Below, in pieces: positions 13,092 through 62,376 of a stretch of DNA of 64,000 nt (positions are counted from its first letter, which is position 1; every line of letters begins with the position of its first letter). Source of the stretch: Methyloversatilis discipulorum (GTDB taxonomy: Bacteria; Pseudomonadota; Gammaproteobacteria; Burkholderiales; Rhodocyclaceae). The stretch covers positions 62,001 through 126,000 of the forward strand of contig NZ_JADMJL010000038.1 in assembly GCF_018780585.1 (NCBI RefSeq), read 5' to 3'. Both the position numbers and the translations under genes were made by a program. A model generated the notes under the pieces. The model made no database searches and was not told where the DNA came from. It saw only the letters and a program-made list of their open reading frames with translations.

Positions 13092-13213
13092 CTGGCATGG
13101 ACGCGACACTACACACCCTTCAAGTGGTACCCAGGCCTGCGCGCTCGGATATACTGCGCGCCAGTTCAAAACCCGCGCCGGTGAAAGACCCGGGTGGCAC
13201 AACATCGGCCCAG

Positions 13214-31839: not shown

Positions 31840-31973
31840 GGGCACGTCCTTCAGCAATCCTGGTCATTGGGTTGGCCACGGCGCATTGCTGCCGAAGTGC
31901 GCTTAGAGGGGGCGAGGTAGTGCTGGGTCCCTCTTCAGGGCGAGGAAAAAGGCCATCGGTGTATCTGAATAAG

Positions 31974-31987
31974 AATACATATGTTCA
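31974..31987. promoter_or_regulatory. Orphan copy of the TGAACA-N2-TGTTCA motif
   Basis: AATACA-TA-TGTTCA: the right half is perfect, the left half weak. It lies within AATACAT-6-ATGTATT (31974-31993), about 135 bp upstream of the LysR start. No metal gene adjoins. Confidence 0.3.
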
Positions 31988-32046
31988 TGTATTAACTCAA
32001 GTCAAGAGTGGTAGCAACTGTTTCGGAACGTGACGCCGAACCCAAC

Positions 32047-44391: not shown

Positions 44392-44404
44392 GGAATGGTG
44401 CCCC

Positions 44405-45520: not shown

Positions 45521-46068
45521 GCTGCACCTCGCAGTGCACCGTTGGTGCGTGTACGTCTGCGCAGCGCCCACGCTAGGACACCGACGCCGAGGACTGCGGC
45601 ACCGCCACCTAGTACGACCACACGGCCGGATGCGACGGCATGCTCGTGTTCGGCGTCTTCGCTATGAACATCGAGAACGCCCGTCAACAGGTCCGATTGG
45701 CCCTGCGCAGTAATAGTGGCCATGATTGAGGTCTCGCCATCGGATAGCGGCTCAGTCAGATCGGCCTCGAACTCTCCAACCCCGTGTGAGCTGACCTTTA
45801 CCTGTTGACCACCCAGCTCGAGGGTCAGCTCGCCATCGGTCACCGGCCGGTTGTCGGCAGCATGGTCGAGGTAGAGTGTGAGACGCTGGCCGTTCAGCAC
45901 ACCCACCAGTTCGAAGTCATCGGAAACTGCGGCAAAGCGCGGAAGCGCGGCCGCTGCGGGGGCAGGAGCGGCTTCGCCATGGTCATGGCCGTCGCCGGCC
46001 CACGTTGCGCTACTGCCAAGCAGGAGGCTGGACAAGGCAGCTGCACGCCAGAAAGAGGATTGCGACAT
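45517..46068 (-). CDS. Membrane-anchored periplasmic protein of the czc operon
   Basis: About 183 aa. Signal peptide (ALSSLLLGSSATWA), a short His-rich stretch (GDGHDHGEAAP), a beta-rich periplasmic domain with repeated VSSHGVGEFEADL-like strands, then a C-terminal membrane helix (VVVLGGGAAVLGVGVLAWAL) and Arg-rich tail. It is translationally coupled to czcB by a 4-base overlap. The domain may be an independent version of the extra N-terminal region of some long CzcB proteins; this is a guess. Function unknown. Confidence 0.6.
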   Translation of the reverse strand: MSQSSFWRAAALSSLLLGSSATWAGDGHDHGEAAPAPAAAALPRFAAVSDDFELVGVLNGQRLTLYLDHAADNRPVTDGELTLELGGQQVKVSSHGVGEFEADLTEPLSDGETSIMATITAQGQSDLLTGVLDVHSEDAEHEHAVASGRVVVLGGGAAVLGVGVLAWALRRRTRTNGALRGAA

Positions 46069-46102
46069 TTCTAAGGTTCCAGGATGGTTGAGCGCGCGCC
46101 GA

Positions 46103-47431
46103 TCAGCGCGTGCCGGAGATGTCAGTGAAAGTCTCGGTCGGCTGCGGCAGCGTGCCTTGTGCCTGCAACAGGGACGAGATGGCCGCGGCATGCTCCACCT
46201 TGGCGAGCAGCGCCGCGCGCTCGGCCTCGGTGGCCTCCTGCTCGATGCGAAGGCGTGTCGGCATGTCCGTCTCGCCCATCGCGAACGACTTTTGGTAGAA
46301 GGTGCGCGTTTGTTGGGCTAGTCGCTGGCGCTCCGAAGCGGCCTGCATCTGGGTGCTGGTTGCCAGTTCGCGCGATTGGGCAGTTCGAATTTCCGAGAGT
46401 AGCCGGGTGCGCTGGGCCGCGAGTGCCGACTCAGCCTCCAGTGCCTGCGCATTGGCGCTGGACAATTGCTCGGTATGACGGCTACCCGTACCGAAGGGAA
46501 TGCGCACACCCACCGTGATCGTCTGGTTGTAGCGTTCGCCGTAGCCGCCCCGATCCCGCGTGGTCGCCAGGGTCAGTTCGGGGTTGGCGTACTTCTGATG
46601 GGACACCAGTTCCGCAGAGCGGCGGGCCGCCAGCGCCTTGTGCTGCAGTTCCAGCAGCGCAGGGTGGTTACCCAACAACGCGCCGGACGGCTGTGCCGAT
46701 GCCGGTTGAACTCGGACACCTGACTGCTCCGGCTGCGCGGAATCGGCCTGCGACGGGATACTCTCGATGCCGGTCAGTGCCAACAACGCCTCGCGCTGCG
46801 TGATTTCTTCGGCCTGAGCAATGGCCAGGGCACTACGAGCCGACGCCAAGGCGCCATCGGCCTGGTTTCTGTCGGCTTGCGCCAGGTCGCCCGCGCGAAC
46901 CCGGCGAGCCACATCTTGCGCCAACTCGTCCGCGCTGCGGGTGCGATCCTGCGCCGCCACCAATTCGGCCTGGGCACGCTGCCATGCCCACCATGCCTGG
47001 CGAACCTGTCCGGCCGTGCGTAGCTTGGCGGCCAGCATCCGGCTGGATAGCGCGAGGCTTTCCGCGTCCGCCCAGCGTGCCGACGAGGCGCGCTCACCAG
47101 GCATCCAAAGGGGAATAGCCACCCCGACTTCATATTCGCGCTGTCCGTTGCGGTTGTTGAACCGATCAGTTTTGGTGGAGGCTTCCAGCGCCATCGGACC
47201 TGCCACCCAACTGCCGGCCGTCTCTTGGCGTGCTTGGGCGGCCTGCTGCCAGGCGCCTTCTCCAGCGGCTTCTGGCTGCCGCTGCCAAGCTGACTCCCAC
47301 AATTGGGCGACCATGTGGCTGTCTGGTCTGGATGGGACGTGAGGGGCGGCTACTGGCTGGGCTAGCACGGTGCCGGCCCAAAGCGTGGATACCGCCCAGA
47401 TCCATCCCTTGCGTATGTCTTTGCGAAGCAT
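46103..47431 (-). CDS. czcC: Heavy-metal RND outer-membrane factor, CzcC family
   Basis: TolC-like outer-membrane protein of 442 aa. Signal peptide ending near AQPVAA, then two long alpha-helical regions (QVRQAWWAWQRAQAELVAAQ and RTRLLSEIRTAQSRELATST) typical of the tunnel. First gene of the operon czcC-x-czcB-czcA-x. TGGAGAAT precedes the ATG. The promoter region (47432-47560) contains an SmtB-type operator copy. Confidence 0.88.
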   Translation of the reverse strand: MLRKDIRKGWIWAVSTLWAGTVLAQPVAAPHVPSRPDSHMVAQLWESAWQRQPEAAGEGAWQQAAQARQETAGSWVAGPMALEASTKTDRFNNRNGQREYEVGVAIPLWMPGERASSARWADAESLALSSRMLAAKLRTAGQVRQAWWAWQRAQAELVAAQDRTRSADELAQDVARRVRAGDLAQADRNQADGALASARSALAIAQAEEITQREALLALTGIESIPSQADSAQPEQSGVRVQPASAQPSGALLGNHPALLELQHKALAARRSAELVSHQKYANPELTLATTRDRGGYGERYNQTITVGVRIPFGTGSRHTEQLSSANAQALEAESALAAQRTRLLSEIRTAQSRELATSTQMQAASERQRLAQQTRTFYQKSFAMGETDMPTRLRIEQEATEAERAALLAKVEHAAAISSLLQAQGTLPQPTETFTDISGTR

Positions 47432-47533
47432 TCAATTCTCCATCGGTGTTGCATCAGTACTTACCCCCGGCTGGGTGTTCTCTTTCCGAGCAAGTGCTTG
47501 TCGTTGAAAAGCCACTGTTCACTGGCTTAGATA

Positions 47534-47547
47534 TGAACAATTGTATA
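47534..47547 (-). promoter_or_regulatory. SmtB-type operator upstream of czcC
   Basis: TGAACA-AT-TGTATA, 10 of 12 to the TGAACA-N2-TGTTCA core. A second palindrome ATTCAT-ATGAAT (47551-47562) lies next to it, giving several TGAA/TTCA half-sites in the czc promoter, about 100 bp upstream of czcC. Confidence 0.6.
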
Positions 47548-47682
47548 TCTATTCATATGAATGGGAAAGAAAACCTTACATCCTTTGAGCACCAATCGCC
47601 TTAGAGAGGGCGTCGGGCGCAAGACATCGAGAGGCGAGGTGGGGCTAATCCACTGCGCAAACAGCTATGCAGACTCCTTGAG

Positions 47683-47705
47683 CATATCCCCCGGGGGGGG
47701 ATATG
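47683..47705. promoter_or_regulatory. G-tract operator of the CsoR/RcnR-type regulator
   Basis: Perfect 10-bp inverted repeat CATATCCCCC-GGG-GGGGGATATG ending eight bases before the regulator ATG. A/T flanks around a G tract match CsoR/RcnR/FrmR operators. It occupies the place of the ribosome binding site. Confidence 0.75.
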
Positions 47706-47713
47706 ATTGCTGC

Positions 47714-47971
47714 ATGAAAGAGATGCACAAGCACACCAGCCACCCAGATCTCGTGAAACGGCTCAAGCGCGCCGAGGGTCATCTGCGACACGTCATCGGG
47801 ATGATCGAAGGAGAAGAAACCTGCCTGGACATCGCTCGCCAGCTCGCTGCGGTGGAGAGCGCCGTCACAGCGGCCAAGCGCGTCCTGATCCATGACCACA
47901 TCGACCACTGCCTATCTCATGATGAGGACTCCGTTCTAGCCGAAATGAAGGCGCTAACCAGACTGCTCTGA
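47714..47971 (+). CDS. CsoR/RcnR/NreA-family metal-responsive repressor
   Basis: 85-aa all-helical regulator. It has the RLKRAEGHLRHVIGMIEGEE core, Cys in EETCLDIARQL, and the later ligands in HDHIDHC. This Cys-His-Cys layout matches the copper-sensing CsoR fingerprint, while the His-rich N-terminus (MHKHTSH) recalls nickel-sensing RcnR/NreA. The next gene is an NreB-like exporter, favouring nickel, so the metal is not settled. Start set by the conserved family N-terminus; its operator lies at 47683-47705. Confidence 0.85.
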   Translation: MKEMHKHTSHPDLVKRLKRAEGHLRHVIGMIEGEETCLDIARQLAAVESAVTAAKRVLIHDHIDHCLSHDEDSVLAEMKALTRLL

Positions 47972-47980
47972 GGTCTCTCG

Positions 47981-49291
47981 ATGCTCTCCGTCCTAAAGAA
48001 CCGCACCTACCGCCACCTGTTCACCGCGCAGGTGATCGCACTCGTCGGCACAGGCCTGATGACGGTAGCGCTCGGCCTACTTGCCTACGAGCTGGCCGGG
48101 GCCGATGCAGGTGCGGTGCTCGGGTCGGCGCTGGCTATCAAGATGCTGGCCTATGTGGGAGTCGCTCCAGTCGCACAGGCCTTCGCCGACCAGTTCCCGC
48201 GACGGTCATTGCTCGTAGCGCTGGACCTGGTACGAGCGGTTGTCGCGATCTGTTTGCCCTTTGTCACCGAGGTCTGGCAGATCTATCTGCTGATCTTTGT
48301 CCTGCAAGCGGCATCCGCCGGCTTCACGCCGACTTTCCAAGCCACTATCCCGGACATCCTTCCCGATGAAGAGGACTACACGAAGGCGCTGTCGCTGTCC
48401 CGGCTGGCCTATGACCTGGAAAGCCTGATTTCCCCGATGCTGGCTGCTGCGCTGCTGACCGTCATCAGCTTTCACAACCTGTTCGCGGGAACAGTGCTCG
48501 GTTTCCTCGTTTCAGCCGCGCTCGTGGTCAGCGTGCGGTTGCCCACAACTATTCCCGGACCGCGCCGCGGCATTTGGGATCGCACGACCCGCGGCACACG
48601 CATCTATCTCGCTACGCCACGCCTGCGGGGCCTGCTGGCGATCAGCTTGGCCGTCTCGGCGGCGGGCGCCATGGTGATCGTGAACACGGTGGTTCTCGTG
48701 AAGGCGCGCTTTGGCCTAGGCGAGGTCGAAGTGGCGTCGGCACTGGCGGCATTCGGAGGCGGTTCGATGGTGGCAGCCTTCGTTCTGCCATCCTTACTGG
48801 AAAAGGTGGCCGACCGAACCGCGATGCTCACCGGCGCTACCGTACTGGTCGTGGGCACGGGGATCGGCGCACTGCTGCCGAGCTATGCATTGTTGCTGCC
48901 GCTGTGGTTGATCATCGGCTTTGGCTACAGCGTGGCGCAAACGCCATCCGGCCGTCTTCTGCGCCGCTCGGCCCATGCCGAGGACCGTCCTGCGATCTTC
49001 GCGGCACACTTCGCGCTGTCGCACGCCTGTTGGCTCATCTGCTACCCACTTGCCGGCCGCTTCGGCGCGGTCATGGGCTTGCCATCGACCTTCATTGTCA
49101 TGTCCCTGGTCGGCTTGGCCGGCGTGGCGCTGACGCTCTGGCTGTGGCCGGCCAGCGACCCTTCTGACGTGGCGCATGACCACCCCAGCTTGCCGCCGGA
49201 TCACCCTCATTTACGCACACACGCAGACCAAGGCAGGCACCATCACCAGCTGATTCTGGATGACCTGCACCGTATCTGGCCGAAAGGATAG
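47981..49291 (+). CDS. nreB: NreB-like MFS metal exporter with His-rich tail
   Basis: Major facilitator of 436 aa with about twelve membrane helices. Begins SVLKNRTYRHLFTAQVIALVG. The segment TPSGRLLRRSAHAEDRPAIF and the His-rich C-terminus (HDHPSLPPDHPHLRTH, GRHHHQ) match NreB of nickel-resistance loci. It follows the CsoR/RcnR regulator by 9 bp, the nreAB arrangement. Nickel export is inferred; other divalent metals are possible. Confidence 0.75.
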   Translation: MLSVLKNRTYRHLFTAQVIALVGTGLMTVALGLLAYELAGADAGAVLGSALAIKMLAYVGVAPVAQAFADQFPRRSLLVALDLVRAVVAICLPFVTEVWQIYLLIFVLQAASAGFTPTFQATIPDILPDEEDYTKALSLSRLAYDLESLISPMLAAALLTVISFHNLFAGTVLGFLVSAALVVSVRLPTTIPGPRRGIWDRTTRGTRIYLATPRLRGLLAISLAVSAAGAMVIVNTVVLVKARFGLGEVEVASALAAFGGGSMVAAFVLPSLLEKVADRTAMLTGATVLVVGTGIGALLPSYALLLPLWLIIGFGYSVAQTPSGRLLRRSAHAEDRPAIFAAHFALSHACWLICYPLAGRFGAVMGLPSTFIVMSLVGLAGVALTLWLWPASDPSDVAHDHPSLPPDHPHLRTHADQGRHHHQLILDDLHRIWPKG

Positions 49292-49359
49292 GCACATTTT
49301 CTCGTTGCGGCATCACAACGCATGGCTTCGGAGGCTGAGAAGGGTGAGCGAAAATATAT

Positions 49360-49381
49360 CACATGAACACATATTCATGTG
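49360..49381 (+). promoter_or_regulatory. SmtB-type operator upstream of czcD
   Basis: CACATGAA-6-TTCATGTG, a perfect 8-bp dyad containing TGAACA-CA-TATTCA (49364-49377). About 45 bp before the czcD ATG. Confidence 0.8.
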
Positions 49382-49424
49382 TTATATTTCGCCATAGTCA
49401 AACACTCAACCAGCAGAGGCGCCC

Positions 49425-50447
49425 ATGTCCCAATCCAATGCACATGACCATGGTCACGACCATGATCACGACCACACCCCCACAGTGACGAGCGCCAACG
49501 AGCGCAAGGTTCTGGTTTCCTTCTTCCTGATCTTCGGCTTCATGCTCGTGGAAGCTGTCGGCGGCGTGCTGTCGGGCTCGCTAGCCCTACTTGCCGATGC
49601 TGGCCACATGCTGACCGACGCCGTGGCACTTGCCCTGGCTTACGCTGCCTTCCGATTCGGTCGCCGCGCAGCCGACAGCAAACGCACATTCGGTTACCTG
49701 CGCTTCGAGGTCATCGCCGGCTTCCTGAACGCCGTGACCCTGTTCGCGATCGTCGCATGGATCGCCTACGAGGCGTGGGAGCGGCTGCAGGCGCCGCCCG
49801 TCATCCTCGCCGGCCCGATGATGATCGTCGCCGTGCTCGGCTTACTGATCAACGTCCTCGTGCTGTGGATCATGACCCGCGGCGAAACCGATCACGTCAA
49901 TGTGAAAGGTGCCATCCTCCACGTGATGGGTGACCTGCTCGGCTCTGTCGGCGCCATCGTTGCAGCGATCGTCATCTACTTCACCGGCTGGACTCCGATC
50001 GACCCCATCCTGTCGGTTCTAGTAGCGGCGTTGATTCTGCGCAGCGCCTGGAAGCTCCTGGCCAAGTCGATCCATATCCTGTTGGAGGGTGCGCCAGAGG
50101 ACGCTTCGCCGGAAAAGGTGGAACAAGGCCTGATGAGCACTGTGCCCGGCCTGGCGGCTGTCAGCCATGTTCACGTGTGGCAACTCACTTCCGGTCGCAC
50201 GATGGCCACGCTACACGTTCGACCCAACGTGGACGAGGAGGCGCGAGCTGTGGTCAAGCGCGTCGAGGCGGTGCTGCGAGAGCAGTTCAGCATCGAACAC
50301 GCCACAGTCGGAATCGACTGGAACTCGGAGGCTGACGAGAACATCTGCAGCCTGCAACCCACGACAGGCCGTCAGGACCACAGCGGCCACGACCACAGTG
50401 AGCACAATCATGACCATGACCACTCCGCTCCCGGTCACAAGCATTGA
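49425..50447 (+). CDS. czcD: Cation diffusion facilitator CzcD
   Basis: CDF-family Zn(II)/H+ antiporter of 340 aa, exporting Zn, Co or Cd from the cytosol. Six membrane helices; metal sites HMLTD in helix 2 (DAGHMLTD) and HVMGD in helix 5, plus the cytosolic domain with SHVHVWQLTSG. His/Asp runs at both ends (HDHGHDHDHDH, and HSGHDHSEHNHDHDH) may buffer zinc. Cotranscribed with the following ArsR gene and preceded by its operator. Confidence 0.93.
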   Translation: MSQSNAHDHGHDHDHDHTPTVTSANERKVLVSFFLIFGFMLVEAVGGVLSGSLALLADAGHMLTDAVALALAYAAFRFGRRAADSKRTFGYLRFEVIAGFLNAVTLFAIVAWIAYEAWERLQAPPVILAGPMMIVAVLGLLINVLVLWIMTRGETDHVNVKGAILHVMGDLLGSVGAIVAAIVIYFTGWTPIDPILSVLVAALILRSAWKLLAKSIHILLEGAPEDASPEKVEQGLMSTVPGLAAVSHVHVWQLTSGRTMATLHVRPNVDEEARAVVKRVEAVLREQFSIEHATVGIDWNSEADENICSLQPTTGRQDHSGHDHSEHNHDHDHSAPGHKH

Positions 50448-50490
50448 GGCCGTGCTAGACGGTTCGCAGTTCACTTGAGGGTTTGAATCC

Positions 50491-50868
50491 ATGACATCCC
50501 GCAAAACCACCAGCGCCGCTATTGTGCAATGTTCGACCTCTAACCACGGCACGACCACTGATGTCCTCGCACTATCGCAAAGTGACGTCGCTGTTCTGGC
50601 AGAGACCTTCCGCCTGCTGGGCGACCAATCGCGATTGAAAATCCTGTTGCAGTGCATGCGCGGATCGGTCGCAGTGGGCGACATTGCTGGCTCGCTAGAC
50701 CTGTCGCAGTCCTTGGTCAGCCATCACCTGCGCCTGTTGCGCGGCGCGCGCCTCGTGCGCGGCGAGCGCCAAGCCAAGCACATCTTCTACGGCATTGCCG
50801 ACCAGCACGTCAGCCAGGTACTCCAGGACATGGCGGTTCACATTTCGGAGGACAGACACGACGATTGA
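50491..50868 (+). CDS. ArsR/SmtB-type zinc-responsive repressor 2
   Basis: 125 aa, closely similar to the ArsR at 38794-39150 (ETFRLLGDQSRLKILLQCM; SLVSHHLRLLRGARLVRGE). Alpha-5 zinc site D-x-H-x10-H-x2-E in DQHVSQVLQDMAVHISED. Placed 43 bp after czcD, so it is likely autoregulated from the operator at 49360-49381. Best candidate for the repressor of all TGAACA-N2-TGTTCA sites. Confidence 0.9.
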   Translation: MTSRKTTSAAIVQCSTSNHGTTTDVLALSQSDVAVLAETFRLLGDQSRLKILLQCMRGSVAVGDIAGSLDLSQSLVSHHLRLLRGARLVRGERQAKHIFYGIADQHVSQVLQDMAVHISEDRHDD

Positions 50869-50890
50869 CTGAACATGTGAGTGCGCGCCG

Positions 50891-50920
50891 GCCTACGCCT
50901 TCAAGGGGTAGGCTTTTTTT
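50891..50920 (+). terminator. Intrinsic terminator after the czcD-arsR operon
   Basis: GCCTAC-11-GTAGGC followed by seven T. The rest of the 50869-51097 gap holds the operator at 51000-51021. Confidence 0.75.
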
Positions 50921-50999
50921 GGCTATTAATCTAGAGAGACACCGGCGCGCCTTGCTGAATGCCTAGAAGACCCCAAGCAAAAAGCACTCTAAAAATAAA

Positions 51000-51021
51000 C
51001 ACTTGAACATATCTTCATGTG
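51000..51021 (+). promoter_or_regulatory. SmtB-type operator upstream of the DUF4148-like gene
   Basis: CACTTGAA-6-TTCATGTG, 7 of 8 dyad matches, with core TGAACA-TA-TCTTCA (51004-51017). About 75 bp before the ATG at 51098. Confidence 0.78.
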
Positions 51022-51097
51022 TGTTATTATTTGTCTACGGGGTATCCGAAAGGCGTAAGGACCACGCCATTATTTTTAACGTCAAGGAGTATTGACC

Positions 51098-51667
51098 ATG
51101 TCCAAGAAAATTCGCTTTGCTGTTCTGCTTTCCGCACTTTTTGCTGCTGGAGTAAACGCTCAACCGTTCGCCGCAGATATGACACGGCAACAGGTCCAGG
51201 AGGATCTGGCTGCTTGGAGGCAATCTGGGTTGGAAGCGTTGTCTCGCGGCGAAAGCGGCCCGGATACGTTCAGCCCTCAATACCAGGCTGCCTTTCAGCG
51301 CTACTTGCAATTGACCCAAGGTGATATGTATCAGGCGCCCTCAGCAGGAAAGACTCGTGCTGAAGTGATGGCTGATTTGGAACTGTGGAAAATCTCCGGC
51401 ATGCACGCGTTCACCTCGCGCGGAATCACCACCGCTTCGCACACCCAAGCCTACCAACAAGCCTACGAGAGCTATCTCCAGCTCAAGCTGGGTGCGGCTT
51501 ACAAGGCTCCGGTGGCATTGACTCGTGCTCAAGTAAAGAGTGATTTGGCAGATTGGCAGGTTGCGGGAATGGCTGGATTCTGGGCTGGTGAGCAGACGCC
51601 TGATACCTATAGTGATGCCTACCGCACCGCATTTGAAACCTACCAGATGCTGCGCAACAAAAAATGA
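51098..51667 (+). CDS. Secreted protein of three DUF4148-like repeats
   Basis: 189 aa with a signal peptide (FAVLLSALFAAGVNAQ). The mature part is three tandem copies of about 55 residues, each starting T-R-x2-V-x2-DL-x-W-x2-SG: TRQQVQEDLAAWRQSG, TRAEVMADLELWKISG, TRAQVKSDLADWQVAG. Each copy ends near Y-x2-A-(F/Y)-x2-Y. The copies resemble the single DUF4148 motif common in betaproteobacteria. AAGGAG precedes the ATG. No metal-ligand cluster is obvious. Control by a zinc-type operator suggests a periplasmic metal-stress role, which is inference. The 5' codon use looks less GC-rich than its neighbours. Confidence 0.65.
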   Translation: MSKKIRFAVLLSALFAAGVNAQPFAADMTRQQVQEDLAAWRQSGLEALSRGESGPDTFSPQYQAAFQRYLQLTQGDMYQAPSAGKTRAEVMADLELWKISGMHAFTSRGITTASHTQAYQQAYESYLQLKLGAAYKAPVALTRAQVKSDLADWQVAGMAGFWAGEQTPDTYSDAYRTAFETYQMLRNKK

Positions 51668-51744
51668 CTTAATGGCAGCTGCATAAAGCAGCGGTCGGAT
51701 GGTTCAGCCAGAAAGAGATTCTTTCTTTTTTTTGAATAAACATA

Positions 51745-51766
51745 CAAACAAGTGTTCATTTGTTTG
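51745..51766 (+). promoter_or_regulatory. SmtB-type operator upstream of the Zn/Cd ATPase gene
   Basis: CAAACA-AG-TGTTCA (51745-51758) within a 22-bp imperfect palindrome CAAACAAG-6-TTTGTTTG. About 70 bp before the ATPase ATG. Confidence 0.6.
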
Positions 51767-51833
51767 CATAACATTCCGATCGCTGATTTGTGCGTCCTGC
51801 CACGGCGATTACTCAGAGAACCAGGAGATTGAT

Positions 51834-54542
51834 ATGTCTTTGGAAACATTGGACGGCACAGGAGCGCAGGACGAACAACTGGGCTTTCGGGTCGAAGGTA
51901 TGGATTGCGCCAGTTGCGTCGGCAAGATTGAAACAGCGCTTGGTCGAATTGATGGCGTATCAAATGTACAGGTTAATTTTACAAATGAGACGCTGACGTT
52001 GACGCGCAGCACAAGTAGCCGAAATACTGCACGCGACATTGCCAAGAAAATCCGGTCCCTGGGCTTCGACGTGCAGGCACTGCCCGCGTCCGAAATGTCC
52101 GCAGCACCTGCACCGTGCCATGCGGCCCACGCGCATGACCACGCCGGCTGCGGCGGCCACCATGACCATGGGCATGCCCACGACCACGGGCACGATCATT
52201 CGCACGGCAAAGCGTGCGGTGATGACCATGGGCATGGCCATGCTCACGGCCATGCCCATGACCACGGTCACGATCACGGGGCCTGCAGCGGGCATGACCA
52301 TGCGCCGGCCTCTGCCTCCCGTGGAGCACCCAGCACGCCCCCCAACGTGTCCATGCGCGTCGAGGGCATGGACTGCGCCAGTTGCGTCGGCAAGATCGAA
52401 ACGGCGCTCGCTCGCATGGATGGCGTGTCCGATGCCCGCATAAACTTCACCGCAGAAACGCTGGAATTGACGCTCGCGTCTGGCGGCCCCACGCAGCTCG
52501 GCCACATCGAGAAGACCATCAAGAGCCTGGGCTTCGGCGTCTCCGACGTGCGCCGCCATGATGGCTCAGCACCCGCGGCCCCAGCAGCAGCATCGACGGC
52601 GCGCCATCAGCGCTGGTGGCAGACGAAGAAAGGCAAGCACGTGCTGGGCCTGGGCGGCCTGATGGGCTCGGCCTACGCGATCGCGCAGTTCGTTCCTGGC
52701 TACGCTGAATGGATCTTCGCCGCTGCGGTGATCGCGGGCGTGCTGCCGTTCGCTCGCAAAGCCTTCGCGCTGGCTGTGTCAGGCTCGCCGTTCTCTATCG
52801 AAACGCTGATGGTCGTCGCCTCGCTGGGCGCGCTCGTGATAGGCGAGGCCGAGGAAGCTGCTGCCGTGGTGTTCCTGTTCGCGATCGGCGAGCTGCTGGA
52901 AAGCGTGGCCGCCGGCCGCGCGCGCGCCGGCATCAAGGCGCTGGCCTCCCTGGTGCCTAAGACGGCGGTACTGCTCGATGCCGCGGGCGGGCAGCGCGAA
53001 GTGCCCGCCGCTTCCCTGCGCGTGAGCGACCGCGTGCTGGTGCGCCCTGGTGACCGGGTGCCTGCGGACGGCAAGATCCTCCGCGGTGAAAGCAGCCTGG
53101 ACGAGTCGCCTATCACCGGCGAGTCCGTACCGCGTCAAAAGGCTATCGGTGCCGACGTGTTCGCCGGCTCCATCAACGTCGATGGCGTGCTCGAAGTACA
53201 AGTCGAGAAGACGGCATCGGACAACACCATTTCTCGCATCATCCAACTGGTGGAGCAGGCGCAGTCCTCCAAGGCGCCCACGGCTCGCTTCATCGAAAAG
53301 TTCAGCCGCTACTACACCCCTGCCGTCATGGCCATCGCGGCGTTGATCGTGGTGGTTCCGCCACTTGCCATGGGTGGCGACTGGGGTACCTGGCTGTACC
53401 GCGGCCTCGCACTGCTGTTGATTGCCTGCCCATGTGCGCTGGTGCTCTCCACACCGGCGGCCATCGCCTCGGGCCTTGCGGTGGCCACGCGACGGGGCCT
53501 GCTGATCAAGGGTGGCAACGCGTTGGAAACCATCGGCCGCGTGCGCGCCATTGCCTTCGACAAGACTGGCACGCTGACCGAGGGCAAGCCGCGCATCACC
53601 GAGGTCCTGCCCTTCGGGCTGTTCAAGCATCAACAGGTCCTTGCGCTTGCCGCCGCTGTCGAGTCCGGCTCAAACCATCCCTTGGCGAAGGCCATTGTCG
53701 CCCATGCCAAGAGCCTGGACGTGGCGATTCCCCAGGCCACGGGCGCATCGGCCATTGCCGGCAAGGCGGTGCGCGCCACCGTGAACGGCAGTGCGCTCGC
53801 TGTCGGATCGCCCGCCCATGCGGAACAGACGGCCACGCTGACAGCCGCGCACCGCAGGGAAATCGACAAGCTGGAGGATGGCGGCAAGACCGTGGTGGTC
53901 CTGTTCGACGAAGCCAGCAAGAACGTTCTGGGCCTGCTGGCCCTGCGCGACGAGCCCCGCCGCGACGCGCGCGAAGGCGTGGCCCAGCTCAACGCCATGG
54001 GCGTGCGCTCGGTCATGCTGACCGGCGACAACCGCCGCACCGCGCAGGCGATCGCCGGCAAGCTGGGCATCGAGTGGGAGGCCGAGCTGCTGCCGCAGGA
54101 CAAGCTGCGCTTGGTCAACGAGATGAAGCGTGATGCCAAGGTGGCGATGGTCGGCGACGGCATCAACGACGCGCCGGCCCTGGCGACCGCCGACGTGGGT
54201 ATCGCCATGGGCGGCGGCACGGACGTGGCGCTGGAAACCGCCGATGCCGCGCTGCTCAAGAGCCGCGTCACGGACGTGGCCCACCTGGTGGCCCTGTCGC
54301 GGGCGACGATGGCCAACATTCACCAAAACGTCGTATTCGCCATTGGCCTCAAGGGCTTGTTCCTGGTCACCACCGTGTTGGGTATCACCGGCTTGTGGGT
54401 TGCCGTGCTGGCCGACACCGGCGCCACGGCCCTGGTCACGCTGAACGCACTGCGCCTGCTGCGCTTCAAGGGCGCGCCGGAGGCCAACCACGGCGACGAC
54501 GCCGGGCGTCCCACCACCTTGTCCGTGCCGTCTGCCCGCTGA
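51834..54542 (+). CDS. Zn/Cd/Pb P-type ATPase with two HMA domains and a His-rich linker
   Basis: P1B-2 ATPase of 902 aa, ZntA/CadA type. Two HMA domains with the same GMDCASCVGKIETAL stretch flank a linker of about 85 residues rich in HDHGHAHDH-type runs. Core motifs: CPC in [44 protein letters not shown], and the late-helix KGLFLVTTV / ADTGATALV pair (Lys and Asp of ZntA). It exports Zn(II), Cd(II) or Pb(II). Start at 51834 has AGGAG seven bases upstream. An operator copy lies in its promoter. Confidence 0.93.
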   Translation: MSLETLDGTGAQDEQLGFRVEGMDCASCVGKIETALGRIDGVSNVQVNFTNETLTLTRSTSSRNTARDIAKKIRSLGFDVQALPASEMSAAPAPCHAAHAHDHAGCGGHHDHGHAHDHGHDHSHGKACGDDHGHGHAHGHAHDHGHDHGACSGHDHAPASASRGAPSTPPNVSMRVEGMDCASCVGKIETALARMDGVSDARINFTAETLELTLASGGPTQLGHIEKTIKSLGFGVSDVRRHDGSAPAAPAAASTARHQRWWQTKKGKHVLGLGGLMGSAYAIAQFVPGYAEWIFAAAVIAGVLPFARKAFALAVSGSPFSIETLMVVASLGALVIGEAEEAAAVVFLFAIGELLESVAAGRARAGIKALASLVPKTAVLLDAAGGQREVPAASLRVSDRVLVRPGDRVPADGKILRGESSLDESPITGESVPRQKAIGADVFAGSINVDGVLEVQVEKTASDNTISRIIQLVEQAQSSKAPTARFIEKFSRYYTPAVMAIAALIVVVPPLAMGGDWGTWLYRGLALLLIACPCALVLSTPAAIASGLAVATRRGLLIKGGNALETIGRVRAIAFDKTGTLTEGKPRITEVLPFGLFKHQQVLALAAAVESGSNHPLAKAIVAHAKSLDVAIPQATGASAIAGKAVRATVNGSALAVGSPAHAEQTATLTAAHRREIDKLEDGGKTVVVLFDEASKNVLGLLALRDEPRRDAREGVAQLNAMGVRSVMLTGDNRRTAQAIAGKLGIEWEAELLPQDKLRLVNEMKRDAKVAMVGDGINDAPALATADVGIAMGGGTDVALETADAALLKSRVTDVAHLVALSRATMANIHQNVVFAIGLKGLFLVTTVLGITGLWVAVLADTGATALVTLNALRLLRFKGAPEANHGDDAGRPTTLSVPSAR

Positions 54543-54653
54543 GGCAACAAGAGGGCTTGACCTTGCCGTCGTTGTAACGCCTAGCCTCCACACAAATGTC
54601 TGCAGAGCGCTTCGGAAGGGCCGGAGTCCTGCATCCAAGAAAGGGTCACTTCC

Positions 54654-55961
54654 ATGCGTAAAAAAATCAGAATCATTGTGGTGGCAGGCGTCATCGCAGC
54701 CGTCGGGGGGATAGCGATCGCTGCCCGCGACGCCAAGGACGAGGGCAAGGCCGCGGCGCCCCCGGCGGGCGCGCCGATGGCGCCGCAGGTGCCCGTGGCC
54801 GAGGTCATTACCCGCACGGTCGCGCCATCGGCCGAGTACACCGGCTTCCTGGCCGCGCCCAAGACCGTCGAGCTGCGCTCGCGGGTCGGCGGCGCCGTCG
54901 ATGCGGTGAGCGTTCCCGAAGGTAGCCTCGTGCGCAAGGGCCAACTGCTGTTCCAGATCGACCCGAGGCCGTTCCAGGTTGCGCTCGACACGGCCGTGGC
55001 GCAACTGCGTCAGGCCGAGGTGCTGGCCAGCCAGGCCCAGGCCGACTTTGACCGCGCCGAGCGCCTGGTGGCGACCGGCGCCGTCGCGCGCAAGACCTAT
55101 GACGATGCCGCCTCCGCACGCAACGCGCGCCAGGCTCAGGTGCAGGCGGCTAAGGCCGCCGTTGCTGCGGCTCAGCTGGACCTGTCCTACGCCCGCGTCA
55201 CTGCGCCCATCGCCGGGCGCGTCGACCGCGTGCTCGTGACCGAGGGCAACTTGGTCAGCGGTGGCGGCGCCGGCGCGGCCACGCTGCTGACCACGATCGT
55301 ATCCATCGACCCGTTGCACGTGTACTTCGACATTGATGAGGCCACCTATCTCAACGTCGTCAGCCGCTCGCGGCCCGCTGCGGGCGCCGGTAGCAAGGCT
55401 TCGCTGCCCGTGCAGGTCGGGCTGACCACGGACAAGGGTTTCCCGCACAGGGGCGCGCTCGACTTCGTGGGCAACACCATTGACCGAAGCACCGGCACGA
55501 TCCGCGCGCGCGCCGTTGTGCCCAACCCGGATGGGCGCATGGCACCCGGCATGTTCGCCCGGGCCAAGCTGTCCACCGGCGCGGCGCGCGAGGCCGTCCT
55601 GATCGACGATCAGGCCGTGGGCACCGACCAAGGGCGCAACTACGTGCTGGTCGTGGGCGAGAACAACCAGGCCCAGTACCGGCCCATCGAACTGGGGCCG
55701 GTGGTGGACGGGCTGCGCGTCATCAACGGCGGCCTGCAGGCCGGTGAGAAGATCATCATCAAGGGCCTCGTGCGCCCCGGCATGGCGGTCACGCCGCGCA
55801 TGGTGCCCATGCAGGCGCCCGCGGCACCGGCCGCCGGCGCGACCGGCGCGACCAAGGCTGCGGCAAACGCTCCGGCTCCCGCTGCGGCGCCTGCCAAGGC
55901 CGGTGGCGCGGACCCCGCCAAGGCTGACGGCGCGGCCGGCTCGGCGGAGGCCCGCAAATGA
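54654..55961 (+). CDS. RND periplasmic adaptor, MexE/AcrA family
   Basis: Membrane fusion protein of 435 aa. N-terminal anchor or signal (IIVVAGVIAAVGGIAIAA), lipoyl half-motifs RVGGAVDAVSVPEGSLVRKGQ and APIAGRVDRVLVTEGNLV, a coiled-coil hairpin between them, and a beta-barrel with VYFDIDEATYLNVV, the MexE-type signature. An Ala/Pro-rich tail of about 50 residues follows the normal end. It overlaps the mexF-like start by 4 bases. Likely antibiotic or solvent efflux rather than metals. Confidence 0.88.
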   Translation: MRKKIRIIVVAGVIAAVGGIAIAARDAKDEGKAAAPPAGAPMAPQVPVAEVITRTVAPSAEYTGFLAAPKTVELRSRVGGAVDAVSVPEGSLVRKGQLLFQIDPRPFQVALDTAVAQLRQAEVLASQAQADFDRAERLVATGAVARKTYDDAASARNARQAQVQAAKAAVAAAQLDLSYARVTAPIAGRVDRVLVTEGNLVSGGGAGAATLLTTIVSIDPLHVYFDIDEATYLNVVSRSRPAAGAGSKASLPVQVGLTTDKGFPHRGALDFVGNTIDRSTGTIRARAVVPNPDGRMAPGMFARAKLSTGAAREAVLIDDQAVGTDQGRNYVLVVGENNQAQYRPIELGPVVDGLRVINGGLQAGEKIIIKGLVRPGMAVTPRMVPMQAPAAPAAGATGATKAAANAPAPAAAPAKAGGADPAKADGAAGSAEARK

Positions 55962-58900
55962 ATTTCCCCCGCTTCTTCATCAACCGGCCGATCTTCGCCA
56001 TCGTCCTGTCGGTGCTGATGCTGATCGCGGGCGCGATCAGCTATTTCCAGCTCCCCCTGAGCGAGTACCCCCAGGTCACGCCGCCGACGGTGCAGGTCAC
56101 CGCCAGCTATCCCGGCGCCAACCCGCAGGTGATCGCCGACACCGTGGCATCGCCGCTGGAGCAGGCGGTCAACGGCGTGGAAGGCATGATGTACATGCAG
56201 TCCCAGATGTCCACGGACGGGCGGATGGTGCTGACCATCTCGTTCGAGCAGCACATCGACCCCGACGTCGCGCAGATCCAGGTGCAGAACCGCGTCTCAC
56301 GCGCGCTGCCCCGGTTGCCGCCCGAGGTCCAGCGCATCGGCGTGGTCACCGACAAGACCGCGCCCGATATTCTCATGGTGGTGCATATGCTCTCGCCGGG
56401 GGACCGCTACGACCCGCTGTACGTGTCCAACTACGCGATGCTCAACGTGCGCGACGAACTGGCGCGCCTGCCGGGCATCGCCAACGTGATCATCGGCGGT
56501 GAAGGCGAGTACGCAATGCGCGTCTGGCTCGACCCCGAGAAGGTCGCATCGCGGGGCATGACCGCCAGCGATGTGGTCGCCGCCATCCGCGAGCAGAACG
56601 TGCAGGTCGCAGCCGGCTCGATCGGCCAGCAGCCGAATGCGTCGGCCGCCTTCCAGGTCAGCGTCAATGCGCTGGGGCGCCTGACCACCGAAGAGCAGTT
56701 CGGCGACATCGTGATCAAGGCCGGCGCCAACGGCCAGGTGACCCGCCTGCGCGACGTCGCACGCCTGGAACGGAACTGGGCTCGGACAACTACACCATGC
56801 GCGGCCAGCTCGACGGCGAGAACGCGGTCGGCCTGCAAATCCTGATGACGCCCGGCTCCAATGCCCTGGACACGTCCAGCGCGGTGCGCGCGACGATGGA
56901 GCGGCTGCAGGCCAAGTTCCCCGAAGGCATCGAGTACAAGATCGCCTACGACCCCACAGTCTTCGTGCGCGCCTCGCTCCAGTCCGTCGCCGTCACGCTG
57001 CTGGAGGCCATCCTCCTGGTGGTGATCGTGGTGGTGCTGTTCCTGCAATCTTGGCGCGCGTCGATCATTCCACTGATCGCCGTGCCGGTCTCGCTGGTCG
57101 GCACGTTCGCGGTGATGCACATGTTCGGCTTCTCGCTGAACACGCTGTCGCTGTTTGGCCTCGTGCTCTCCATCGGCATCGTGGTGGATGACGCCATCGT
57201 GGTGGTGGAGAACGTGGAGCGCCACATGGCGCTGGGCGAATCGCCCAAGGATGCGGCGCGCAAGGCGATGGATGAAGTGACTGGCCCGATCCTGGCCATC
57301 ACCTCGGTGCTGGCAGCGGTCTTCATCCCCTCGGCGTTCCTGTCGGGGCTGCAGGGCGAGTTCTATCGCCAGTTCGCGCTGACCATCGCGTTCTCGACCA
57401 TCCTGTCGGCGATCAACTCGCTTACGCTGTCGCCAGCGCTGGCCGCCATCCTGCTCAAGCCGCACCACGGCGCGGCCAAGCCCGATCGTCTCACGCGCAT
57501 CATCGACGGCGTGTTCGGCGGCTTCTTCCGCCGCTTCAACCGCTTCTTCGATCGCGCCTCGAATTCCTACGTCGGGGGCGTGCGCCGCGCGGTGCGCGGC
57601 AGCGCCATCGTGCTGCTGCTCTACGTCGGCTTCCTGGGCCTGACCTGGCTGGGCTTCCACAAGGTGCCTGCGGGCTTCGTGCCGGCCCAGGACAAGTACT
57701 ATCTCGTGGGCATCGCCCAGCTTCCGACCGGCGCCTCGCTGGATCGCACCGAGGCGGTCGTCAAGGAGATGACCAAGATCGCACTGGCTGAGCCGGGCGT
57801 CGAGAGCGTGGTGGCCTTCCCGGGCCTGTCGGTCAATGGACCGGTGAACCAGCCGAACACCGCGCTGATGTTCGCCATGCTCAAGCCCTTCGATGAGCGC
57901 AAGGACCCGTCGCTGTCGGCCTTCGCCATCCAGGGCAAGCTCATGGGCAAGTTCAGCCAGATCCCGGACGGCTTCGTTGGCATCTTCCCGCCGCCGCCGG
58001 TGCCGGGCCTGGGTTCGATGGGCGGCTTCAAGCTGCAGATCGAGGACCGGGCGGGCCTGGGTCCCGAGGCGCTTGCGCAGGCACAGGGCCAGATCATGGG
58101 CAAGGCCATGCAGGCGCCCGAGCTGGCGAACATGCTCGCCAGCTTCCAGACCAATGCGCCGCAGTTGCAGGTGGACATCGACCGGGTGAAGGCCAAGTCG
58201 CAGGGCGTATCGCTGACCGAGGTGTTCGACACCCTGCAGGTCAACCTTGGCTCGCTCTACGTCAACGACTTCAACCGCTTCGGTCGCACCTACCGGGTCA
58301 TGGCCCAGGCCGATGCGCAGTTCCGCATGCAGGCTGAGGACATAGGCATGCTCAAGGTGCGCAATGCAGCGGGCGACATGATCCCGCTGAGCGCGATCGC
58401 GACCATCGAGCGCAGTTCCGGCCCCGACCGGGTGATGCATTACAACGGCTTTCCCTCGGCCGACATCAGCGGCGGGCCAGCGCCGGGCTACTCGTCCGGC
58501 CAGGCCACCGCCGCGATTGAGAAGATCGTGAGCGAATCGCTGCCGGACGGTATGACCTACGAATGGACGGACCTGACTTTCCAGGAAAAACGGGTTGGCA
58601 ACACGGCGATCTACATCTTCGCGCTGGCGGTGCTGCTCGCCTTCCTGTTCCTGGCGGCCCAGTACAACAGTTGGTCGCTGCCGTTCGCTGTGCTGCTGAT
58701 TGCACCCATGGCGCTGCTCTCGGCGATCGCCGGCGTCTGGCTCTCTGGGGGCGACAACAACATCTTCACGCAGATCGGTTTCGTGGTGCTGGTCGGCCTG
58801 GCTGCCAAGAACGCGATCCTGATCGTGGAGTTCGCCCGCGCGAAGGAAAGCGAAGGGGCCGATCCGCTGGCAGCCGTGCTCGAAGCCGCGCGCTTGCGGC

Positions 58901-59139
58901 TGCGCCCGATCTTGATGACGTCGTTCGCCTTCATCGCTGGCGTGGTGCCGCTGGTGCTGGCCAGCGGTGCGGGCGCCGAGATGCGCCACGCCATGGGCAT
59001 CGCGGTGTTCGCCGGCATGCTGGGCGTGACGGTATTCGGCCTGGTGCTGACGCCGGTGTTCTACGTTGTGGTGCGCAAGCTGGCGCTGCGCCGCGAAGCG
59101 CGCCATGCCCGTGGCGGCATGACCGACCAGCACGCATGA
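55958..59139 (+). pseudogene. RND pump inner-membrane gene, MexF-like, split by a 5-bp tandem duplication
   Basis: The first frame (55958-56845) encodes a normal HAE-1 RND N-terminus: FFINRPIFAIVLSVLMLIAG, then the first periplasmic domain. At 56767-56776 the pentamer GGAAC occurs twice in a row. With one copy the reading would continue RLELGSDNYTMRGQLDG, as expected for MexF, and yield about 1058 aa. With two copies the frame shifts and stops at 56845. The rest of the pump (helix-4 VDDAIVVVENVE, GAPAP-type loop, C-terminal helices) is intact in another frame, with an internal ATG at 56797. No intact pump can be made unless the repeat reverts. Confidence 0.85.
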
Positions 59140-59159
59140 CGGCCAGGAGGACATACGAC

Positions 59160-60665
59160 ATGAAAACATCTTTCGCATTCACACGACCCGCCAGGACGCT
59201 GGCGCCGCTCGCCCTCGCGGCGGCGCTGGCTGGCTGCTCCATGGCACCGAAGTATGACCGGCCCGCAGCGCCGATCGACACGGCCTATCCCTCGGGCGCG
59301 GCCTATGTGGAACTGGCGGCCGCGACGCCCGACGACGCGATCACGGCCGAGATCGGTTGGCGGGACTTCTTCCGCGACCCGCTGCTGCAGCAGTTGATCG
59401 GCATTTCGCTGGAGAACAACCGCGACATGCACAAAGCCGCGCTCAACGTGGAGGCGGCTCAGGCGCTGTACCGTATCCAGCGTGCCGAGATGCTGCCGAA
59501 CCTGGGCGTTTCCGCCCGCGGCGCGTCAGAGCGCGTACCGGCCGACCTCAGTACCACGGGGCAAAGCGACGTGCTCCGGCGCTACGACGTGGCCGGGGTG
59601 ACGGCCGCCTGGGAGCTGGACCTGTGGGGCCGCATCCGCAGCCTCAACGACCGGGCGCTGGCGTCCTACCTGGCCCTCGACGAGACCCGCATCGCCACGC
59701 AGATGAGCCTGGTGTCCGAGGTGGCCAGCGCCTACCTCACGCTGCGCGCCGACCAGGAACTGCTGCGCCTGACGAGCGACACCCTCGCCACACAGAAGCG
59801 CTCCTATGACCTGACCACCCAACTGGTGGAAGCGGGAAATTCCACGCAGCTCGACCTGCGCCGCGCGGAGATCGCGCTGCGCACCGCCGAGGCCAACCGC
59901 GCCGCCTACACGCGGCAGGCGGCCAAGGACCGCAACGCGCTGGTGCTGCTGCTGGGCCAGCCGCTGACGCCGGAGCTGTCCCGGCAGCTTGACGAGGCCG
60001 TGGCGCTGCCGGACGACATCGTGCCGACCGACCTGCCGAGCGGCCTGCCGTCCGAACTGCTCGCGCGTCGGCCGGACATCCGCGCCGCCGAGCAGATGCT
60101 GATCGGCGCCAACGCCAACATCGGCGCGGCGCGGGCCGCGTTCTTCCCGACGATTAGCCTCACGGGCTCGGCGGGCACGGCCAGCGCTTCGCTGGACGGC
60201 CTGTTCGATTCGGGCTCGCGGGCCTGGAGCTTCCTGCCGCAGATCACGCTGCCCATCTTCCGCGGCGGCGCGTTGCGAGCCAATCTGGACGTGGCACAGG
60301 TACAAAAGAGGATCGAAATCGCCAACTACGAGAAGTCTATCCAGGCGGCCTTTGCTGAGGTGGCTGACGGCTTGGCGGGCAAGCGCACGCTTGATGAGCA
60401 GATCCGCTCGGAGCAGCTCCTGGTAGCGGCTAGCCAGAAAGCCTACCAACTAGCCGAGCAACGCTTCCAGGAAGGCGTGGACGACAACCTCACCTTGCTC
60501 GATGCGCAACGCACACAGTACGGTGCGCAGCAGACCCTGGTGCGCACGCGCCTGACGCGGCTGAACAACCTCATCCACCTCTACAAGGCGCTGGGTGGCG
60601 GCTGGACTGAGCACACGGTGCAATCGGGCGCCACCGGGCAACCATCCGCCCGGTCGCCGGGATAA
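59160..60665 (+). CDS. Outer-membrane efflux lipoprotein, OprM/NodT family
   Basis: 501 aa. Signal peptide with lipobox LAGC (AAALAGCSMAPKYDRP), so it is lipidated at Cys. Two TolC-like repeats: DLWGRIRSLNDRALASYLAL and VSEVASAYLTLRAD in the first half, PDIRAAEQMLIGANANIGAARAAF-type segment in the second (P-x-I-x-A-AEQ). AGGAGG lies eight bases before the ATG. Completes the mexEF-oprM-like tripartite pump, whose inner-membrane gene is broken. Confidence 0.9.
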   Translation: MKTSFAFTRPARTLAPLALAAALAGCSMAPKYDRPAAPIDTAYPSGAAYVELAAATPDDAITAEIGWRDFFRDPLLQQLIGISLENNRDMHKAALNVEAAQALYRIQRAEMLPNLGVSARGASERVPADLSTTGQSDVLRRYDVAGVTAAWELDLWGRIRSLNDRALASYLALDETRIATQMSLVSEVASAYLTLRADQELLRLTSDTLATQKRSYDLTTQLVEAGNSTQLDLRRAEIALRTAEANRAAYTRQAAKDRNALVLLLGQPLTPELSRQLDEAVALPDDIVPTDLPSGLPSELLARRPDIRAAEQMLIGANANIGAARAAFFPTISLTGSAGTASASLDGLFDSGSRAWSFLPQITLPIFRGGALRANLDVAQVQKRIEIANYEKSIQAAFAEVADGLAGKRTLDEQIRSEQLLVAASQKAYQLAEQRFQEGVDDNLTLLDAQRTQYGAQQTLVRTRLTRLNNLIHLYKALGGGWTEHTVQSGATGQPSARSPG

Positions 60666-60714
60666 GGGCTATGCGCAACGGCGGCGTTCCCCATCGTTGC
60701 GCACGGAGAACCGG

Positions 60715-61100
60715 ATGAGGATCGGTGAACTTGCGCGCTTGACGGGCACCCCCCGGAGAACATTCGGTTCTACGAGCGGGAGGGCCTGTTGCAAGCCCCG
60801 GAGCGGTCACGCAACAACTATCGGCGCTATGGCCCGGCCCATGTCGAACGGCTTCACCTGATTCGCAACTACCGTGCCTCGGGAATCGGCCTGGATGACG
60901 TGCGCCGCCTACTGGGTTGGGCACATGAGGGGTTCCTGGAACCTGAGCTGCTAAGGCAGGCTGTCCAAGGCCATCTCGCCTGTGTTGAGGAACGCATGGA
61001 GCAACTGATCCAGGTGAAAGAGCACCTGCTCGCATTGGCCCTGCACGGTGCTGCTTCCGCCGGGGCTTCCGAGGATGGACCGGCTCGCGATGGTTCGTGA
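60715..61100 (+). pseudogene. MerR-family regulator with a frameshift in a C tract
   Basis: The start MRIGELARLTGTP and the remainder IRFYEREGLLQAPERSRNNY ... YGPAHVERLHLIRNYRAS read in two different frames. They join if the C6 run at 60749-60754 had one more C, giving TGTPPENIRFYEREG, as expected for MerR. The product would be about 128 aa. The PbrR/CadR Cys-rich metal site is not seen; only HLAC is present, so a metal or drug ligand is unclear. GGAG precedes the ATG. Located 49 bp after the OprM-like gene. Confidence 0.75.
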
Positions 61101-61120
61101 GCATCGCATGTCCATATAAC

Positions 61121-61134
61121 TGAATATATATTCA
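61121..61134 (+). promoter_or_regulatory. SmtB-type operator upstream of the MFS gene
   Basis: TGAATA-TA-TATTCA, 10 of 12 to the core and a perfect dyad. About 45 bp before the MFS ATG. Confidence 0.65.
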
Positions 61135-61179
61135 TGCGTGTAATATTTCCGGCCAGACAAACGAATAAGAAAGACGCCC

Positions 61180-62376
61180 ATGACCGACCAGAGCATCACG
61201 CGCCGAAACATCGGCGTTCTCACCGCCGCGCAGGCGCTCGGCGGCGCCAGCGCGCCCATCGTGATGTCGCTGGGTGGGCTGGTCGGCCAGCAGCTTGCCA
61301 AGAATTCGGCCTGGATCACCTTGCCCGTGAGTCTGTTCGGCCTGGGTCTTGCCATCGGCACCTTGCCTGCCGCCTTCATCATGCGGCGCCATGGCCGCCG
61401 CAACGGATACGTGGTGGGGGTCGGCTTCGGCGTGGCCTCGGGCCTGATCGCCGCGTTGGGCATCATGCTGGCCTCGTTCTGGATCTTCTGCGCCGGCACC
61501 TTCCTGGCGGGCTTCTACGGCGCGTATGTGCAGAGCTACCGCTTCGCAGCCGCCGACACCGCCGAGGACGCGCTTAAGGCCAAGGCCATTTCCTGGGTCA
61601 TGGTGGGCGGTCTCGCGGGCGCCATCATCGGGCCGCAGTTGGTGATCTTCACGCGCGATGCGGTAGCGGGCACGCCCTACGTTGGCAGCTTCCTCAGCCA
61701 GGCGCTGCTGCCGCTGATCGCCTTGCCGATCCTGCTGATGCTGCGCACGCCGAGCCAGACCCAGGCCGAAGCAGTCGCCGATAGCGGTCGGACGGTGCTG
61801 CAGCTCTTGGCGATGCCGCGCTATCTGCTGGCCGTGGCTGCGGGCGTGGTGTCCTATGGGGTGATGGCGTTCGTGATGACGGCCGCGCCGGTGGCGATGG
61901 TCAACCACGGGCATTCGGTGGACAACGCCGCCCTAGGAATACAGTGGCACCTGCTGGCGATGTTCGGGCCGAGCTTCTTCACCGGGCGACTGATGGTGCG
62001 CTACGGCAAGGAGCGCGTGACCGCCGTCGGCATGGTGCTGCTCGCCGCCTCCGGGGTGGTGGCCCTGGGCGGGCTCGGCCTGTCCCACTTCTGGGGCTCG
62101 CTGGCGCTGCTGGGCATCGGCTGGAACTTCAGCTTCATCGGCGCGACGGCGATGGTCACCGACTGCCACACCCCGGCCGAGCGGGGCAAGGCGCAGGGCA
62201 TGAACGATTTCTTCGTCTTCGCCGCCACGGCGGCCGTGTCGTTCCTCGCGGGATCGATCCTGCACAGCTCGGGCTGGCAGGCGGTCAACTGGATGATCTT
62301 CCCGGCCCTGGCGCTGATCCTGGTGCCGCTGCTGTGGCAGGCCGCGCGAAAGCCGGCGCTGCCAGCTCCGGTCTGA
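61180..62376 (+). CDS. MFS transporter
   Basis: 398 aa with about twelve membrane helices. Begins ITRRNIGVLTAAQALGGASAP; loop FIMRRHGRRNGYV is the motif-A region. It has no His-rich tail. I cannot assign a substrate. The upstream SmtB-type operator suggests zinc-linked expression, although the family usually exports small organic compounds. Convergent with the next gene. Confidence 0.75.
   Translation: MTDQSITRRNIGVLTAAQALGGASAPIVMSLGGLVGQQLAKNSAWITLPVSLFGLGLAIGTLPAAFIMRRHGRRNGYVVGVGFGVASGLIAALGIMLASFWIFCAGTFLAGFYGAYVQSYRFAAADTAEDALKAKAISWVMVGGLAGAIIGPQLVIFTRDAVAGTPYVGSFLSQALLPLIALPILLMLRTPSQTQAEAVADSGRTVLQLLAMPRYLLAVAAGVVSYGVMAFVMTAAPVAMVNHGHSVDNAALGIQWHLLAMFGPSFFTGRLMVRYGKERVTAVGMVLLAASGVVALGGLGLSHFWGSLALLGIGWNFSFIGATAMVTDCHTPAERGKAQGMNDFFVFAATAAVSFLAGSILHSSGWQAVNWMIFPALALILVPLLWQAARKPALPAPV

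Follow-up and report, generated by a model that had tools for sequence, protein, structure and literature searches.

We analysed a 64,000-nucleotide stretch of the Methyloversatilis discipulorum genome (contig NZ_JADMJL010000038.1, positions 62,001 to 126,000; hereafter the window), which carries an island of metal-efflux genes. Five transcription units of this island are preceded by similar inverted repeats, and one of the five contains the gene of an ArsR/SmtB-type repressor, ArsR2. The units, the two ArsR genes and the putative operators (to which no strand is assigned) are as follows, numbered from the first base of the window.

38794..39150, plus strand, arsR1, a paralogue of arsR2 with the same zinc motif, beside copA
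41245..47431, minus strand, czcCBA-type heavy-metal RND efflux unit
47526..47562, czcC operator block, with a 24-mer at 47537-47560 and two half-sites, 47534 (TGAACA) and 47550 (TATTCA)
49359..49382, operator upstream of czcD-arsR
49425..50447, plus strand, czcD, cation diffusion facilitator
50491..50868, plus strand, arsR2, ArsR/SmtB repressor gene with the α5 zinc-site motif, behind the czcD operator
50999..51022, DUF4148 operator
51098..51667, plus strand, three-repeat DUF4148 protein
51740..51763, zntA (Zn/Cd ATPase) operator, its left half degenerate
51834..54542, plus strand, zntA, Zn/Cd/Pb-type P-type ATPase
61116..61139, operator upstream of the MFS exporter
61180..62376, plus strand, MFS exporter

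The units were named mainly from family models. The czcCBA permease matched the CusA/CzcA family at 795.2 bits (cut-off 701.45), the czcB adaptor model scored 85.8, below its cut-off of 94.9, and czcC, for which there was no family hit at E 1e-20, is named by position. CzcD scored 275.9 bits with TIGR01297 (cut-off 82.35) and 330.6 with the ZitB model, below the cut-off of 408. ZntA, whose neighbours are the DUF4148 frame and an RND adaptor frame, scored 536.4 with TIGR01512 (cut-off 313.5) and 918.4 bits with PRK11033, below the cut-off of 1005, all computed on the longer frame from 51699. The MFS exporter matched PF07690. The DUF4148 protein matched PF13663 (E 2.5e-18) and has, by eye, a signal-peptide-like start; its structural model shows helical repeats and nothing but helices, and is of low confidence (mean pLDDT 60, pTM 0.31).

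ArsR2 is an ArsR winged-helix protein (PF01022, Pfam HTH_5, E 5e-12) that scored 79.9 bits with the NCBIfam model HTH_metalloreg (NF033788, cut-off 55), and its best solved relative is SmtB (E 1.2e-17). A first-pass annotation of this DNA had ascribed the motif D-x-H-x10-H-x2-E to both ArsR proteins of the island, and we found it in ArsR2 and ArsR1 alike; D-x-H-x10-H-x2-E/H is the α5 ligand motif of ArsR/SmtB zinc repressors. ArsR2 also has a 12-2-12-type operator ahead of its own operon, at 49359-49382 upstream of czcD-arsR2.

The same annotation had placed copies of TGAACA-N2-TGTTCA, each matching 10 or 11 of the 12 core positions, before the five units. All five are where it put them, at 47534 (2 mismatches), 49364 (1), 51004 (1), 51745 (2) and 61121 (2), and the window holds no other place within two mismatches of the core. 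The czcC match does exist at 47534, but a better register with a two-base gap begins at 47542, and TGAACA and TATTCA stand ten bases apart in the conserved stretch 47526-47562. We dropped the bare core as evidence because it is not in excess at up to three mismatches (17 places found in the window against 12.95 expected, with 15 of 100 shuffles attaining 17). Palindromy alone was equally dropped, since coding stretches of the window match or exceed the sites as inverted repeats. The bare core thus carries no weight, and the case depends on longer sites and on relatives.

In the whole genome (4,562,796 bases), TGAAYANNTRTTCA occurs exactly at two places, 49364 and 61121, both in the island, and at 19 places with up to one mismatch, four of them in the island. 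The 20-base pattern AHWTGAAYANNTRTTCATDT has seven places at up to two mismatches, five being the reported sites; this pattern was composed once the sites were known, so that the count is partly circular and held-out matrices are the fairer test, which every site passes. Among 60 other genomes, 58 have three or fewer forward matches to the 20-base pattern, and each of the other 12 genomes of the genus has one to three, against seven here. Elsewhere in the genome, the palindrome ACATGAACAGACGTTCATGT at C37:58506-58525 has a response-regulator gene on one side and, on the other, a gene read as TolC/czcC-like. It was rejected as an ArsR site because its region has matches in 10 of the 12 congeneric genomes, in all of which ArsR2 is absent (E 1e-20), and it probably serves another regulator. 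Position C77:267681, likewise set aside, lies at the start of a gene taken by reading to be TetR-type.

In the held-out design, each unit was omitted in turn and the matrix was built from the remaining units and their relatives. The omitted sites scored 35.9 bits (czcD), 34.5 (DUF4148), 27.7 (MFS), 27.5 (zntA) and 22.9 (czcC), whereas the highest background scores over 20 stretches of this genome, 400 kb in total, were 9.3 to 14.1 bits. With a matrix made only from eight czcD operators of relatives, the six best-scoring places in the window were 49364, 51004, 61121, 51745, 47542 and 31974, and an earlier matrix, made from 13 relatives' sites of which none is present in the window, gave an identical top six. 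The sixth place in these rankings is a weaker candidate:

31969..31992, candidate operator before the LysR-type gene at 30946-31857 on the minus strand

It scored 18.9-22.1 bits with the held-out matrices, values also attained a few times per 3 Mb by random sequence of matched AT content. A similar site stands at 884 in the related locus L033, before what seems to be the same LysR-type gene, there cut by the end of the locus.

Conservation was followed in 30 related loci, 27 close (75-100% identity) and three remote, with an operator threshold of 17 bits; many of the close loci are near-identical copies. All 27 close ArsR2 loci have the czcD operator, all 21 with zntA have the zntA operator and all 18 with the DUF4148 gene have the operator of that gene; the czcC-nreA site is present in 17 close loci (L016-L032) and the MFS operator in the four close loci that extend to the exporter (L035, L037, L038 and L039). 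Footprint alignments comprised nine distinct sequences for czcD, six for zntA, five for DUF4148, four for czcC and two for MFS, window included, hand-picked from related loci and plasmids. Mean pairwise identity in the operator exceeded that in the flanks throughout: 0.84 against 0.56 for czcD, 0.77 against 0.58 for zntA, 0.95 against 0.64 for DUF4148, 0.98 against 0.76 for czcC and 0.96 against 0.69 for MFS. The czcC block is identical in three of its four distinct sequences, with a single base changed in the fourth. The zntA operator, weak in the window, has stronger counterparts in the diverged loci L032, L033 and L040, and two relatives with a DUF4148 protein of only about 50% identity retain the operator of that gene.

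At 8634 of L040 the operator of the DUF4148 unit persists though the DUF4148 gene is missing, a Pseudomonas juntendi plasmid (L105) has a group II intron maturase gene (12272-13693) between arsR and the DUF4148 operator, and in L030 (4110-6792) the nreB match is split into two pieces about 1.5 kb apart. Outside the island, none of eight MFS orthologues (taken from 30 listed of 52 found) has the operator upstream at 10 bits, a weak control given that these orthologues are 40-73% identical, belong to other lineages and come from genomes in which ArsR2 was not sought. At other positions, one orthologue locus, L095, contains three matches rich in AT (14.4, 12.0 and 11.6 bits). On two Sphingobium plasmids of like context (L091 and L092, 2700-3123) a 19.6-bit operator separates the MFS orthologue from an ArsR gene behind it; the ArsR of L091 is 66% identical to ArsR2 over 100 residues.

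Relatives of ArsR2 are rare in the genomes sampled: they occur in one of 198 other genomes of the family (E 1e-20) and two of 273 others of the class (E 1e-25), and ArsR2 is absent from all 12 other genomes of the genus (E 1e-20). The two class-level ArsR genes (L118 and L119; 53 and 55% identity) each have an operator by their start, of 35.7 and a weaker 20.0 bits, and one of them stands before a gene read as a cation transporter. These remote ArsR genes extend the pairing of operator and regulator beyond the island. As to position, the DUF4148 operator overlies a sigma-70-like promoter match (51003-51030), taking in its first hexamer and the greater part of its spacer, and the czcC block is overlapped by a minus-strand promoter-like match (47567-47540); a simple sigma-70-type scan gave no such match over the czcD, zntA or MFS operators. 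Taken as sequence comparison, these results support one candidate operator class, of SmtB/CzrA-like form, at all five units.

We consider it likely that the α5-type ArsR2 jointly represses czcCBA, czcD-arsR, DUF4148, zntA and the MFS exporter, and that zinc or cadmium releases them. Metal-free ArsR2 dimers would bind the 24-base, 12-2-12-type inverted repeat, with consensus ACACATGAACATATGTTCATGTGT, at the five promoters, and the bound apo-ArsR2 would block transcription of the five units. Zn(II) or Cd(II) at the α5 D-x-H/H-x2-E ligands would then lower the affinity for DNA, so that all units would be released together. Since ArsR2 is encoded in one of its own targets, the predicted circuit would be self-limiting. 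We infer binding, repression, metal release and co-induction from the SmtB/CzrA family.

A number of observations weigh against this scheme. With the czcD-only matrix, 47542 scored 21.3 and 31974 scored 19.9, and in 3 Mb of random sequence of matched AT content the same matrix found 20 bits twice, 18 bits six times and 25 bits never, so that 47542 and 31974 are the least secure sites. The hold-out is incomplete, since the training sites were first found through a matrix from 49364, 51004 and 61121 of the window; that first matrix did not contain the czcC and zntA sites. Both of these are imperfect, and the czcC site can also be read as half-sites ten bases apart. Two order-level genomes have seven and ten forward matches to the 20-base pattern (reversed controls three and five), and no site passes 17 bits in the three remote ArsR loci (L043-L045, 30-36% identity). 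Equally conserved 24-column windows number 9 of 123 for czcD, 13 of 147 for zntA, 14 of 174 for DUF4148, 15 of 252 for czcC and 49 of 150 for MFS, counts in which overlap with the operator itself was not separated. The promoter scan yielded four matches against a shuffle mean of 1.8. Finally, the arsR2 relative of L040 (8001-8366) is interrupted by an in-frame stop ahead of the zinc-site helix, yet nearby operators remain; L041 and L042 have match values equal to those of L040, which is the one of the three that was read.

The persistence of the L040 operators despite this stop would also fit a role for ArsR1, which, alone or with ArsR2, might be the principal repressor at all of the sites or at some of them; we regard this as rather unlikely but as the strongest alternative. 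The two proteins share the zinc motif and an identical 19-residue recognition-helix stretch, LSQSLVSHHLRLLRGARLV, and on this likeness ArsR1 may be a second repressor at the same sites. Furthermore, L047 and L103 each have an ArsR that by eye looks closer to ArsR1 and is followed by an operator and the gene of a metal ATPase. ArsR1, however, sits by copA, with no operator visible upstream within about 260 bases in the window and three distinct relatives, and none above 17 bits in the scanned relatives; its autoregulation was rejected on these grounds. An IncQ plasmid of 8132 bases, moreover, carries arsR2 and the czcD operator with no second ArsR among its listed genes.

It is less likely still that the operator is real at czcD-arsR, DUF4148, zntA and MFS while the czcC block is another element, with half-sites ten bases apart, for another regulator. 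All 37 bases of the block are conserved, beyond the needs of a 24-base site, and at 22.9 bits it scored below the other four when held out, but that score still exceeds the corresponding 400 kb background maximum of 12.1 bits and the block overlaps the minus-strand czcC promoter-like match.

Control of each unit by a local regulator (CzcRS, MerR/CadR type or NreA), with the sites as chance AT-rich palindromes, might draw on the unremarkable bare core, on the MerR-type gene before the MFS exporter and on Pseudomonas, where czcCBA is under CzcRS and cadA under CadR according to a review (PMC10393844), but is very improbable in the face of the held-out scores, the background and the conservation in relatives. 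The MerR-type gene (60715-61100) is broken in the window, its start and remainder lying in different frames. Of the matches to the response-regulator family PF00072 listed for this genome (118 counted; sensor kinases not searched), none falls on the czcCBA contig, and thus no CzcR was found by this czcCBA.

ArsR2 as repressor of the five units would leave other parts of the island to other sensors. NreA is a CsoR/RcnR-family protein (PF02583), and its gene is preceded by a possible operator of its own:

47683..47705, G-tract palindrome before nreA, a possible NreA operator outside the ArsR set

We take this palindrome to resemble an RcnR/CsoR-type site and the copA promoter region to resemble a CueR site; nreAB and copA probably have other sensors, and the ArsR set covers the island in part, not clearly as a whole. 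A Vibrio plasmid carries nreAB-czcD-arsR, flanked by Tn3-type elements, from just past the czcC block; czcCBA is missing there and only the czcD operator is kept, suggesting that the block is czcC's own. On a Klebsiella plasmid (L101, 6378-6860) nreAB is inverted but still adjoins czcD-arsR, the divergent genes having a single 30.7-bit operator between them. Because nreA there points away from czcD across that operator, this arrangement argues against a clean separation of nreAB from the ArsR set, and the idea of nreAB as a freely moving cassette, drawn from a partial Klebsiella match, was withdrawn.

The IncQ plasmid carries czcD-arsR and its operator alone, beside sul2, while czcD-arsR-DUF4148-zntA occur together in 18 of the 27 close loci, mostly near-identical, with the MFS gene beyond those loci. 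Some units are therefore separable, yet much of the block is usually together. The window also has a tRNA-Gly (27580-27655) and an integrase gene from 27840. The earlier proposal of a single regulon for separately acquired cassettes thus holds as to the common operator class, with an α5-type ArsR behind one copy, but separate acquisition is borne out only partly. Tentatively, and with some doubt, the island might be an operator-defined modular mobile regulon, its cassettes having gained or kept the operator of one α5-type ArsR, with the periplasmic-type DUF4148 protein as a dedicated zinc-response member; elsewhere such cassettes would be under their own regulators, namely CzcRS, MerR or a private ArsR.

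Bacillus subtilis CzrA, a sensor of zinc excess, controls the separate efflux genes cadA and czcD (PMC5189952). The predicted regulon is alike in placing several efflux genes under one zinc sensor but would comprise at least five units, including those of an RND pump, a DUF4148 protein and an MFS exporter, and lies on a proteobacterial mobile element. Cyanobacterial SmtB, ZiaR, AztR and AzuR have 12-2-12 inverted repeats at promoters, and among the pattern matches tabulated for the Anabaena genome in the same paper is a repeat of like form, AATACCTGAACA-GA-TGTTCAAGTATT, beside hypothetical genes (PMC8790569). The 12-2-12 form, with SmtB as best solved relative of ArsR2, is common to both groups, whereas targets and hosts here are others and the island is mobile and multi-cassette. 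The Pseudomonas zinc regulators named in the above review are Zur, CzcR and CadR. Exporters of like kinds are under zinc control there, but through a two-component activator and a MerR-type regulator, whereas here czcCBA has an ArsR-type operator. Nothing was recognised as this regulon in the literature, of which part was covered; the principle is known from other bacteria and the target set looks unusual.

If the scheme is correct, one small repressor gene would coordinate several exporters of a mobile island, unlike the CzcRS/CadR arrangement described for Pseudomonas (PMC10393844). It would help to explain how cassettes remain co-regulated after transfer between distant Proteobacteria, and it would link DUF4148, a family of no assigned function, to the zinc response by way of a conserved operator.

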